17,881 nucleotides of DNA from an uncultured Panacagrimonas sp. (GTDB lineage Bacteria > Pseudomonadota > Gammaproteobacteria > Nevskiales > Nevskiaceae): the NCBI GenBank assembly GCA_946481265.1, contig CAMLNE010000042.1:1-17881 (forward strand), written 5' to 3'. The notes beneath the pieces are model-generated. The model was given only the letters and a program-made list of their open reading frames with translations. It did not search any database and was not told the DNA's origin. Position 1 is the first letter of the stretch. Every line of letters starts with the position of its first letter. The position numbers were made by a program, and so were the translations under genes. Positions 12,985 through 15,399 of the stretch are shown one piece after another.

Positions 12985-14151
12985 ATGAGCCTCAACACGA
13001 CGCTGGACCGGCTGCTGACCGATGCCTGTGCCGGCAACCGCATCCCGGGCGTCGTCGCCACGGTGGCCGACGACCAGGGCGTGATCTACGAGGGCGCCGC
13101 CGGCCTGCGTTCCTGCGACAAGCCGGAGAAGATGAACGTCGACACCGTGGCCTGGTACGCCTCGATGACCAAGGCGATCACCGCGGCCGCCGCCATGCAA
13201 CTGGTGGAACGCGGCAAGCTGTCGCTGGAGGAACCGGCCGGCAAGGTCATTCCCGCGCTCGGCAAGGTGCAGGTGCTGGAAGGTTTCGATGCGGACGGCA
13301 AGCCCAGGCTGCGTCCGGCACGGGGCACCGTCACGCTGCGCAACCTGCTGACCCACAGCTCGGGCTTCGGCTACGAGATCTGGACCGCCGATGCCGCGCG
13401 CGAGCTCGAAAGCCGCGGCGCCGACAACGTCCTGAGCGGCACGCCGGCGACACTCGATCGGCCGCTGCTGCACGATCCGGATACCTGCTGGGACTACGGT
13501 GTCGGCATCGACTGGGCCGGCCGCATGGTGGAGGAGGCCAGCGGGCGGCAGCTCGGCGACTTCATGCGCGCCAACCTGTTCGAACCGTTGGGCATGAAGA
13601 GTGTCGGCTTCCGGCTCCGCCCGGAGCAGCGCTCCAACCTGGCCGGCCTGCATGCCCGCCTGCCGGACGGCAGCATCGTCCCCAATCCGATGGAAATCGG
13701 CCAGGAATCGCCGGTCGAGATGGGCGGGCATGCGCTCTACGGAACCCTGCCCGACTACCTGCGCTTCACCCGCATGATCCTGGGTGGCGGCATGCTCGAG
13801 GGCAGCCGGGTGCTGGAAGCGCGGACAGTCGCGACCCTGTCGCAGAACCACCTGGGCGAGCTGCTCGTTCCCCCGATGCCGGCGGCGCCCCCGTATTCCA
13901 ATGCAGTGGAATGGTGGCCGGGCATCCCCTGCAAGTGGGGCCTGAGCTTCCTGATCAACACCAAACCCACTCCCCAGGGCCGCTCGGCGGGCAGCCTGTC
14001 CTGGGCCGGCCTGGCCAACAGCTACTATTGGATCGATCCGGTCAAGAAGCTGACCGGGGCGGTTTCCACCCAGATCCTGCCCTTCTACGATGCTCCGGTG
14101 GTGCAACTCTTCGGCGATCTCGAAACCGCCGTCTACCAAGCCCGGAGCTGA
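12985..14151 (+). CDS. Family VIII-like serine esterase (beta-lactamase fold)
   Basis: A 388-residue protein of the class C beta-lactamase/EstB superfamily. The nucleophile motif is S60-M-T-K63 and the second-motif Tyr is Y171 in DYGVGID, closer to EstB-type esterases than to the YxN of beta-lactamases. The third motif appears to be W340-A-G in SLSWAGLANSYYW, where esterases often have WGG. No signal peptide is present, so it is probably cytosolic, which argues against an antibiotic-degrading role. AGGAG eight bases before the ATG supports the start. It would cleave short or bulky esters. The 114 bases before it contain the regulator's hairpin but no clear promoter. Its stop lies 11 bases before an opposing terminator. 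Carboxylesterase is the best reading; a D-aminopeptidase-like role is possible. Confidence 0.88.
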   Translation: MSLNTTLDRLLTDACAGNRIPGVVATVADDQGVIYEGAAGLRSCDKPEKMNVDTVAWYASMTKAITAAAAMQLVERGKLSLEEPAGKVIPALGKVQVLEGFDADGKPRLRPARGTVTLRNLLTHSSGFGYEIWTADAARELESRGADNVLSGTPATLDRPLLHDPDTCWDYGVGIDWAGRMVEEASGRQLGDFMRANLFEPLGMKSVGFRLRPEQRSNLAGLHARLPDGSIVPNPMEIGQESPVEMGGHALYGTLPDYLRFTRMILGGGMLEGSRVLEARTVATLSQNHLGELLVPPMPAAPPYSNAVEWWPGIPCKWGLSFLINTKPTPQGRSAGSLSWAGLANSYYWIDPVKKLTGAVSTQILPFYDAPVVQLFGDLETAVYQARS

Positions 14152-14162
14152 ATCGGACGCAC

Positions 14163-14190
14163 AAAAAAAGACGCCACCTTTCGGTGGCGT
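14163..14190 (-). terminator. Strong intrinsic terminator facing the esterase gene
   Basis: An eight-base stem (acgccacc at 14171-14178, ggtggcgt at 14183-14190) with loop gaaa is followed on the minus strand by C and then seven T. The T-run exists only in the minus direction, so it serves a transcript starting between here and the LysR gene. It may also help stop convergent plus-strand transcription. Confidence 0.85.
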
Positions 14191-14345
14191 TGAGTGCGGT
14201 CCCGCATGAGGCGGGACTGGAGGAGACCGTCCGACTTGCTGATTTCACTCGCTTTCTGCGGTGGTGAAACCTCTGGGTGCGGCATCGAAGACCAGGTTCC
14301 CTGGCGTTGCGGAGGAGCCCTTGCTCCGTCTGCCGCGCTTCGATG
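14163..14345 (-). ncRNA. Candidate structured small RNA, about 183 nt, no family recognised
   Basis: Transcribed on the minus strand from about 14345. The 5' end catcgaag (14345-14338) pairs with cttcgatg (14290-14283) to close a first domain that contains ggagc-aagg-gctcc and ccagg-gaa-cctgg hairpins. Next comes a bulged hairpin, ggtttcac (14271-14264) with gtgaaatc (14248-14241), containing an inner cgc/gcg stem. A seven-base hairpin, gtcccgc/gcgggac (14217-14199), follows. The RNA ends in an intrinsic terminator. A promoter-like pair stands at the right distance upstream. No long minus-strand gene lies here that could use this terminator, because the flanking genes are both plus strand. 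It does not match 6S, 4.5S, tmRNA or RNase P as I know them. A trans-acting regulator is one possibility. Confidence 0.6.
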
Positions 14346-14351
14346 AGATGT

Positions 14352-14380
14352 ACTCTACGCCTCGTGCTGCACTGCATCAA
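14352..14380 (-). promoter_or_regulatory. Predicted sigma70-like promoter of the small RNA
   Basis: TTGATG (14380-14375), a 17-base spacer, and TAGAGT (14357-14352) read on the minus strand, four of six matches in each box. The predicted start, about seven bases on, falls at 14345, exactly where the first RNA stem begins. Confidence 0.5.
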
Positions 14381-14410
14381 TTGAGTTGTTCTAGCGGCCT
14401 TGTTTAGAAA
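14381..14410 (+). promoter_or_regulatory. Predicted promoter of the LysR gene, back to back with the small-RNA promoter
   Basis: TTGAGT (14381-14386), an 18-base spacer, and TAGAAA (14405-14410). The -35 box directly abuts that of the minus-strand promoter, forming catcaattgagt. The predicted start near 14417 leaves a leader of about eight bases, matching the lack of a ribosome binding site before the LysR ATG. Confidence 0.4.
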
Positions 14411-14424
14411 ATCTTAACTACGAA

Positions 14425-15399
14425 ATGCGGCTTCCCCCTCTCAATGCGCTTCGCGCCTTCGAATCCGCTGCCCGGCATCTGAGCCTGCGCAAGGCGGCCG
14501 CCGAGTTGCACGTGACGCCGGCGGCGATCAGCCACCAGGTCAAGTCGCTCGAACTGGCGCTCGGCGTGTCGGTGTTCAAGCGCCTGCCTCAGCATGTCGA
14601 ACTGACCCCGGCCGGCGAAGCCCTGCTGCCCCGCCTGAGCGCCGCCTTTCAGCAGATGAGCGACGCGGTGAATGCGGTCCAGCGGCTGCAGCATTCCGGT
14701 CGGGTCACGGTCGCCGCACCGCCGGCGCTGGCCGCCAAATGGCTGGCGCCCCGCCTGCACCGCTTCGCGGCCCTGTATCCGGACATCGACATCAACATCA
14801 CCGCCGACGGTGCGCTGATCGACAGCGTGCGCGAGGACAGCGGCGATCGCGGCAACCTGCTGGAGAACGCCGACCTGGCGATCCGCTCCGGCCACGGCGA
14901 GTACGAGGGCTATGTCGTCGAGCGACTGTTCCAGATCCATGCGATCCCGATGTGCAGCCCGCGTCTGCTGACCGGCCCGCATCCGCTGCGCGAACCGATG
15001 GATCTGCGCCACCACACGCTGCTTCACCACGCGACCGGCCTGGACCAGACCGACGCGGAACGGCCGAACTGGAGCGTGTGGCTGAAGGCTGCCGGCGTGC
15101 GCGGCGTCAACCACCGGCGGGGACCGATCTTCAACCAGGTGGCGATGGCGATGGAGGCGGCGGCAGACGGATTGGGCGTGGTGCTCGGCATTCCGGTGGT
15201 CGCCGCGGCCGATCTCGAATCCGGCCGCCTGGTGATGCCCTTCGCGCTGAGCCTGCCGATTGCCGCTTCCTACTTCCTGATCCACAGCCGCAAATCGGCA
15301 GGCGACCCCAGCGTGGTGGCCATGCGCGACTGGCTGCAGGCCGAGGCCCGCAGCGAGCGCGGGGCAGAGCCGCCGGTACAGCAGCCGCGCGCCGACTGA
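14425..15399 (+). CDS. LysR-family regulator, GcvA-like
   Basis: A 324-residue transcription factor. The N-terminal winged HTH (1-62) has the GcvA-type opening LPPLNALRAFESAARH and the recognition helix HVTPAAISHQVKSLE. Effector-binding lobes cover about 90-300, beginning at GRVTVAAPPALAAKWLAPRL, with the GcvA-like WSVWL segment near 210. The C-terminus is a short disordered tail. The ATG is fixed by the family's usual N-terminus, but no Shine-Dalgarno is seen before it, so the mRNA may be nearly leaderless. It is divergent from the small-RNA candidate and convergent with the SDR gene 15 bases past its stop. LysR proteins often act on divergent neighbours, so the small RNA is a natural candidate target. 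The effector is unknown. Confidence 0.92.
   Translation: MRLPPLNALRAFESAARHLSLRKAAAELHVTPAAISHQVKSLELALGVSVFKRLPQHVELTPAGEALLPRLSAAFQQMSDAVNAVQRLQHSGRVTVAAPPALAAKWLAPRLHRFAALYPDIDINITADGALIDSVREDSGDRGNLLENADLAIRSGHGEYEGYVVERLFQIHAIPMCSPRLLTGPHPLREPMDLRHHTLLHHATGLDQTDAERPNWSVWLKAAGVRGVNHRRGPIFNQVAMAMEAAADGLGVVLGIPVVAAADLESGRLVMPFALSLPIAASYFLIHSRKSAGDPSVVAMRDWLQAEARSERGAEPPVQQPRAD

Follow-up and report, generated by a model that had tools for sequence, protein, structure and literature searches.

The gap between an esterase gene and a LysR-type regulator gene in an uncultured Panacagrimonas sp. raises the question of whether it houses an RNA gene of its own and, if so, which regulators would govern that RNA and which genes it would act upon. 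The gap lies within a stretch of 17,881 nucleotides (GenBank assembly GCA_946481265.1, contig CAMLNE010000042.1), referred to here as the window, and an earlier sequence-only reading had placed in it an undescribed, structured small RNA gene divergent from the LysR gene. The RNA gene in this gap is real. Judging from comparison across genomes, it is likely to encode an anti-Shine-Dalgarno (anti-SD) sRNA that occupies the gcvB position, answers to a GcvA-like activator and to PhaR, and through PhaR to PHB, and damps catabolic and uptake genes.

The RNA gene and its conserved 3' module

Read 5' to 3', the minus strand of the gap presents a palindrome, a dyad with a TGCNNNGCA core on the -35 element, the -10 element, the RNA itself (about 183 nt), and its terminator (Table 1). 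The promoter pair with its 17-nt spacer, the closing stem, and the terminator stem with its T run are all present where the sequence-only reading had put them, while the anti-SD motif, the PhaR-type operator on the -35 element, the GcvA-type palindrome, and the GcvA family of the LysR protein had escaped it.

Table 1. Features of the esterase-lysR gap and its flanking genes (positions in the window)
Feature	Position	Strand	Remarks
GcvA-type palindrome TTAAGATTTTCTAAA	14403..14417	-	consensus WTTAG-N5-CTAAW, 1 mismatch; centre at about -65 relative to the predicted RNA start, just before the lysR start codon
PhaR-type operator TTGATGCAGTGCAGCAC	14364..14380	-	16/17 positions of YTKNTGCRNYGCANMAR; overlaps -35
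-35 hexamer TTGATG	14375..14380	-	
-10 hexamer TAGAGT	14352..14357	-	spacer to -35 of 17 nt
Predicted primary transcript, about 183 nt	14163..14345	-	start and end predicted
Variable 5' domain	14232..14345	-	closing stem 14345-14338/14290-14283 plus hairpins; alignable in two nearest relatives only
Closing stem strands	14345-14338 with 14290-14283	-	CATCGAAG pairs with CTTCGATG
Conserved 3' double-hairpin module	14161..14231	-	87.3 bits with model R2, whose 8 building sequences include the window
Unpaired anti-SD motif CTCCTCC	14219..14225	-	
Hairpin 1 GTCCCGC-CTCAT-GCGGGAC	14199..14217	-	
Terminator hairpin	14163..14190	-	stem 14190-14171, T run to 14163
Divergent lysR gene, GcvA family	14425..15399	+	NF008352 313.5 bits, cut-off 288
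Beta-lactamase-family esterase gene	12985..14151	+	ends 12 nt past the predicted RNA end; also adjacent in L001 and L090

Homologous loci were collected by a LysR-based scan of genome contigs, in which 80 of 335 loci were kept, and by blastn against 85 Nevskiales genomes. In a Panacagrimonas MAG (L001), the RNA occupies the same gap with 73% identity, next to a LysR that is 84% identical, and a second homologous gap, 82% identical to the window, was found by blastn in genome G033 (L090); esterase and LysR flank the RNA in both, as they do in the window. The blastn search also returned a tandem pair in G034 and incomplete matches in G018, G045, and G047, and a copy in G048 was added by pattern search. 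A plasmid collection gave no match.

The alignment of nine sequences is conserved in two blocks, at the promoter and in the 3' module, with a middle part between them that varies in length and sequence, and the TGCNNNGCA core of the PhaR-type operator is present in all nine, the window included. The 5' domain is alignable in three sequences only, more distant copies failing to align and the L001 and L090 pieces being shortened in one comparison; its closing stem keeps 7 of 8 pairs in L001 and 6 of 8 in L090, through unchanged sequence and without compensation. The conserved core comprises the last 70 nt, with an unpaired CUCCUCC, a hairpin, and the terminator hairpin, in the layout GTCTCCTCCAG-hairpin-CGCAC-terminator. 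A first covariance model (R1), built on the whole nine-sequence alignment, was dropped, as RNAalifold folded its anti-SD motif onto the terminator, and a second (R2) was built from 8 sequences of the 3' module.

Model R2 matches 75 of the 85 Nevskiales genomes with 142 matches (E<=0.05, weak ones included), and 110 matches from 100 sources, giving 96 distinct rows, entered the covariation alignment, with 47 of the 49 phaR-linked matches included and other loci partly absent. The compensatory changes that the sequence-only reading had called for are found in the 3' module: in hairpin 1, all seven pairs show two-sided changes, 99.7% of the cells are paired, and the sequence is almost wholly replaced. 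The covariation score of the whole structure is 0.654, compared with 0.177 for shuffled alignments and at most 0.208 for slid versions, in an alignment fitted to R2, which favours structure, and with related rows counted repeatedly. CTCCTCC occurs in 103 of 106 distinct copies (108 distinct copies minus two with short upstream sequence). Covariation, synteny, and promoter conservation together bear out a structured small RNA gene divergent from LysR.

The contrary reading, in which chance hairpins and a spare terminator lie in a gap with no RNA gene, could draw on the strict sigma-70 scan, which called no promoter here, and on the terminator scan, which recovered the window terminator, although 0.7 such sites are expected per shuffled 1.2 kb and a single site is not rare. 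The window promoter is indeed weak on its own, because its hexamers match the sigma-70 consensus at only 8 of 12 positions (our own count). Against it stand the conservation of that promoter, the covariation seen in 96 distinct rows, and the occurrence of R2 matches in 75 of 85 genomes, 46 of which have a copy linked to phaR (described below), and almost no credibility is left to this reading. The predicted fold of the window RNA has an energy of -74.9 kcal/mol, compared with -59.8 kcal/mol in shuffled sequences (z -3.65), and none of 200 shuffles was as good.

A CsrA/RsmA-binding role had also been suggested for the RNA. Decoy RNAs of that kind carry several conserved GGA motifs in hairpin loops. 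The single AGGGA-like stretch that favours such a decoy lies in the unconserved 5' domain, while the 3' module has no repeated GGA loops on inspection of the alignments, and the suggestion was rejected as extremely improbable.

Among 369 Gammaproteobacteria searched with R2, 11 match, G001 included. Judged by eye, six matches outside Nevskiales (L260, L261, L262, L265, L267, and L268) resemble double hairpins with CU-rich starts, three (L263, L266, and L269) do not, and L264 is ambiguous. At L118 (G034, contig C207), two near-identical tandem sRNA genes lie about 400 nt apart with a composite promoter on each, and neighbouring sRNA copies also occur in G043, G029, G061, G007, and G008. A further composite-promoter copy is that of Solimonas terrae (G002, C16:167945-168012).

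PhaR-type operators, phaR linkage, and the GcvA-type palindrome

The dyad upstream of the sRNA copies fits both the operator consensus of PhaR, YTKNTGCRNYGCANMAR, as excerpted from PMC12849132, and that of PhbF, TGNTGCNNNGCAA, as excerpted from PMC3206438. In the window it stands at the promoter, and its TGCNNNGCA core overlaps or adjoins promoter elements as in the PhaR regulon of phasins and other genes, whereas the window member of such a regulon is an sRNA gene (excerpts of PMC12849132, PMC3206438, and PMC12542648); MmgR is the only PhaR-controlled sRNA named in the excerpted parts of these three papers.

When TGC and GCA are required and up to 3 mismatches are allowed at the other positions, a PhaR-type box lies within 200 nt upstream of 44 of 47 phaR-linked copies (44/2350 in shuffled sequences; 3/47 in the downstream control) and of 44 of 59 other copies (88/2950 shuffled; 3/58 downstream), the shuffled rates being 2-3%. 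It is absent in 3 of the former and 15 of the latter, and perfect matches number 0/47 and 15/59, respectively. At several phaR-linked copies, the box overlaps the -10 element (TTGACA...TATACTGCACTGCAACA). A search of eight genomes returned 32 boxes versus 4 for the reversed pattern, and in six of the eight the box lies in the promoter of a phasin-like gene; four of these six proteins pass Pfam Phasin_2, and the remaining two, which have no Pfam match, were judged by eye. Further promoters with a PhaR-type box and a related upstream element were seen at L142 (G047, C27) and L156 (G052, C35).

The phaR gene itself (PF07879) is present in 81 of the 85 Nevskiales genomes, and 49 of the 142 R2 matches, in 46 genomes, lie within 2.5 kb of it, every one downstream and on the same strand, with about a dozen of the 49 being weak (E > 0.001). 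A phaR-linked copy is absent in 39 of the 85 genomes at this sensitivity, and 4 of those 39 are without phaR. The two nearest relatives of the window's organism, G001 and G033, are positive for phaR, with no phaR-linked R2 match in either; the presence of phaR in the window's organism is assumed from them.

The second element of the promoter recalls enterobacterial gcvB, which is divergent from gcvA and activated by GcvA (excerpts of PMC1557403) and has the repeat ATTAG-n5-CTAAT in the E. coli gcvA-gcvB gap (excerpts of PMC5002191). The window resembles this arrangement in that the sRNA gene and a GcvA-family LysR gene diverge, a palindrome of that type, here with one mismatch, lying between them, and differs in the anti-SD seed and the extra PhaR-type operator (excerpts of PMC5002191, PMC1557403, and PMC3658693). 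With a consensus based on these loci as well as on the literature (WTTAG-N5-CTAAW), the palindrome with up to 1 mismatch was found at 10 of 13 copies beside a divergent LysR versus 12 of 93 other copies. When up to 2 mismatches are allowed, 24 of 106 copies have the palindrome exactly 41 nt from the PhaR core (from 25 listed pairs, one copy appearing twice), and no such pair arose in 200 mononucleotide shuffle sets. The palindrome pattern has eight matches in eight genomes, six of them at these sRNA promoters, and the PhaR core is absent in two GcvA-linked copies (G042 and G046).

A LysR start lies adjacent and divergent in 11 of 55 loci without phaR linkage, in addition to the window, and eleven loci with the composite promoter have no LysR in the fetched flank, which was mostly 300 nt long. 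The GcvA cut-off of 288 is passed by the LysR proteins of the window and of five of six relatives (L001, L118, L092, L097, and L095), with L106 failing. At L106 and L151 (G052, C29), a palindrome and a PhaR-type box stand without the sRNA module before a short ORF with a strong SD, and a LysR 42% identical to that of the window lies nearby.

These likenesses raise the reading that the RNA is a highly diverged GcvB, forming a classical gcvA-gcvB pair that senses glycine and represses amino-acid transporters, without PHB input. The GcvA-family LysR above its cut-off, the divergent layout, and the ATTAG-n5-CTAAT-like repeat favour it, as does the length of GcvB, which is similar to that of the window RNA. 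The core conserved here, however, is the anti-SD CUCCUCC, unlike the G/U-rich seed of GcvB, and 12 loci lie beside a gcvA-like gene in the fetched flanks compared with the 49 matches beside phaR. GcvB is not among the 6 Rfam matches up to E 10 at positions 13700-14900, and an identification as GcvB by sequence was rejected on that account; a diverged GcvB is considered very unlikely.

Possible kinship with anti-SD double-hairpin RNAs

The Rfam search proposed in the sequence-only reading recognised no known family: at positions 13700-14900, none reached its gathering score, the best being RF02278 with 22.1 bits of 50. The description as undescribed holds to that extent but not for the mode of action, in which the RNA would work like described anti-SD double-hairpin sRNAs. 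The RF02278 model aligns end to end with the last 66 nt of the window RNA, where a CU-rich anti-SD stretch is followed by two hairpins, the second being the terminator. In relatives, RF02278 scores 22.6-25.4 bits in five copies at four of seven loci and 21.9-23.3 bits at three of six further loci, and other families appear on some copies, namely BjrC174 with 28.3 bits of 45 (L118) and ncS54 with 23.6 of 43 (L278). RF00519 obtains 16.1 bits of 41 in the window, 22.3 in L081, and 22.2 in L337. The nearest kinds are the Burkholderia double-hairpin RF02278, rhizobial MmgR, and enterobacterial GcvB, the kinship to RF02278 being putative.

The RF02278 RNAs, represented by NcS27 and bdhR1 of Burkholderia and S17 of Bordetella, share with the window RNA the CU-rich anti-SD start, the hairpin, and the terminator hairpin, and are alike also in having a long precursor with a short stable form and several copies per genome, whereas the hairpin sequence of the window differs and its family is tied to phaR and to a GcvA-like LysR (excerpts of PMC5688073, PMC10987360, and PMC11722255). 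According to excerpts of PMC11722255, S17 is a 190-nt RNA (S17L) that RNase E cuts into a 67-nt form, which is complementary to the ribosome-binding sites of target mRNAs; Hfq and the Bvg state both affect the amount of S17, the Bvg state being the only signal given for it, and no growth inhibition was shown on overexpression. In view of this dependence on the Bvg state, relatives may have a main input other than PhaR. Overexpression of NcS27 slowed growth on several carbon sources and affected phenylalanine and tyrosine catabolism (excerpts of PMC10987360). A motif shared upstream of three Burkholderia RF02278 copies is left unnamed in the excerpts of PMC5688073, in which PHB is not found, and PhaR is not found in the excerpts of PMC11722255 and PMC10987360. 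Among the open-licence papers listed, in their titles, abstract starts, and passages, no link between RF02278 and PhaR and no Nevskiales sRNA was found, the Sass 2019 paper on NcS27 lying outside this set.

MmgR of Sinorhizobium is repressed by PhaR (AniA) through a promoter dyad and limits PHB (excerpts of PMC12542648 and PMC8401924), and its family, alpha-r8, has a common 10-mer with an anti-SD signature (excerpts of PMC12559287). A PhaR-type promoter dyad, present in the window and across its family, and the anti-SD signature are thus common to the window RNA and MmgR / alpha-r8 (RF00519 suhB), whereas MmgR is a 77-nt, NtrC-activated RNA of Alphaproteobacteria and the window RNA is paired with a GcvA-like LysR (excerpts of PMC12542648, PMC8401924, and PMC12559287).

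In Burkholderiales, RF02278 was found in 99 of 150 genomes (E<=0.001), with 59 above its cut-off among the matches listed. A PhaR-type box (up to 2 mismatches, 200 nt upstream) precedes 22 of 90 copies, compared with 76/9000 in shuffled sequences, the 90 being L167 and L170-L258 among the matches listed, five of them below the family cut-off, with L168 and L169 left out. Because the neighbourhood of the copies is itself enriched, with boxes in the 200 nt downstream of 4/60 at up to 1 mismatch and 5/60 at up to 2, shuffles alone overstate this contrast. Six sub-threshold copies, among the matches listed and by our own reading, lie 264-1105 nt from phaR and divergent from it; five of them (L409-L413; G208, G165, G203, G113, and G159) start 0-66 nt after the stop of a Phasin_2 ORF, one of which barely passes, and the sixth has a PhaR-type box of its own. 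At least part of the RF02278 family therefore has a phaR link. Standing after a phasin stop and beside divergent phaR, the CTCCTCC double hairpins of L409-L413 are candidate 3'-UTR-derived sRNAs of phasin mRNAs.

RF02278 RNAs reportedly owe their 'toxic' label to a 2012 screen and are said to be linked with growth arrest. The window RNA might be an ordinary diverged member of this kind, a starvation-responsive anti-SD RNA at which neither the PhaR-type nor the GcvA-type site plays a particular part, and the common layout, the CUCCUCC start, and the full-length model alignment at 22.1 bits agree with that reading. Yet no score exceeds roughly half of the gathering score of 50, some copies score as well or better with other families, Nevskiales have far more PhaR-type boxes and phaR linkage than chance would give, and the Burkholderiales RF02278 copies are themselves enriched in boxes, albeit with the downstream control of 5/60, so that an RF02278 RNA without these inputs is regarded as rather unlikely.

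Proposed circuit and candidate targets

Under the preferred reading, an anti-SD sRNA under GcvA-like and PhaR control, the RNA would be made as a transcript of about 183 nt from the 'gcvB position' of the GcvA-like LysR and, on the model of Bordetella S17, may be processed to a stable 3' fragment of about 70 nt. The unpaired CUCCUCC, lying between the 5' domain and the covarying hairpin, would pair with the SD of chosen mRNAs and block their translation, probably with Hfq. From the palindrome near -65, the LysR would switch on the RNA while holding down its own gene, and PhaR on the -35 operator would, by analogy with MmgR, repress the RNA until PHB granules draw PhaR off, after which the RNA would damp catabolic and uptake genes during carbon storage. 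Both operators are recognised by their match to a consensus, and we infer binding by PhaR and LysR, the sign of regulation, the processing, the role of Hfq, and the targets from these comparisons. The sign of the PhaR effect is uncertain because PhaR can also activate, as with phaP3 of R. eutropha (excerpts of PMC12849132). The sRNA probably lets the cell dampen the use of carbon sources as its carbon store fills.

We give even chances to a wider proposal: that a circuit exists across the proteobacteria in which the PHB-granule sensor PhaR governs anti-SD double-hairpin sRNAs and these switch off carbon catabolism, the window representing a branch at the place of gcvB. In such a circuit, the sRNA genes of Nevskiales would lie just behind phaR; those of Burkholderiales would be partly under PhaR boxes and would in addition be found within phasin 3' UTRs next to phaR; and rhizobial MmgR would be the alphaproteobacterial form. 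In the window branch, GcvA and PhaR operators at the fixed 41-nt spacing would join amino-acid or one-carbon sensing to carbon storage. The operator and the phaR linkage propose an input, PHB, for RF02278-type RNAs. If this is true, the RNA couples carbon storage to the translation of catabolic genes in Gamma- and Betaproteobacteria, as in rhizobia, a coupling that bears on bioplastic production. The presence of this type of sRNA beside a gcvA-like gene further suggests that the RNA of a LysR-sRNA pair can be replaced while the regulator is retained.

Lists of targets based on SD complementarity serve as leads only. The pattern TGGAGGAGA-N(2-10)-ATG has 63 sites in seven RNA-bearing genomes versus 1 for the reversed pattern, a control that leaves SD bias uncorrected, and any gene with a strong SD can qualify. 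From 30 fetched target loci, 23 had an ORF longer than 60 aa, 20 were scanned with Pfam, and 18 gave a match. The candidate targets include an aromatic amino-acid hydroxylase (in two genomes), AMP-binding ligases, a ring hydroxylase, and glyoxalase/dioxygenase-superfamily proteins, as well as SpoVR, DUF1302, regulators, and others. SpoVR-like genes with sRNA-complementary leaders were seen at L395 (G001, by Pfam) and, by eye, at L396 (G034) and L399 (G048); the leader site TGGAGGAGAACACGATG occurs in G001 and G048, and the same site is listed in G033 and G047.
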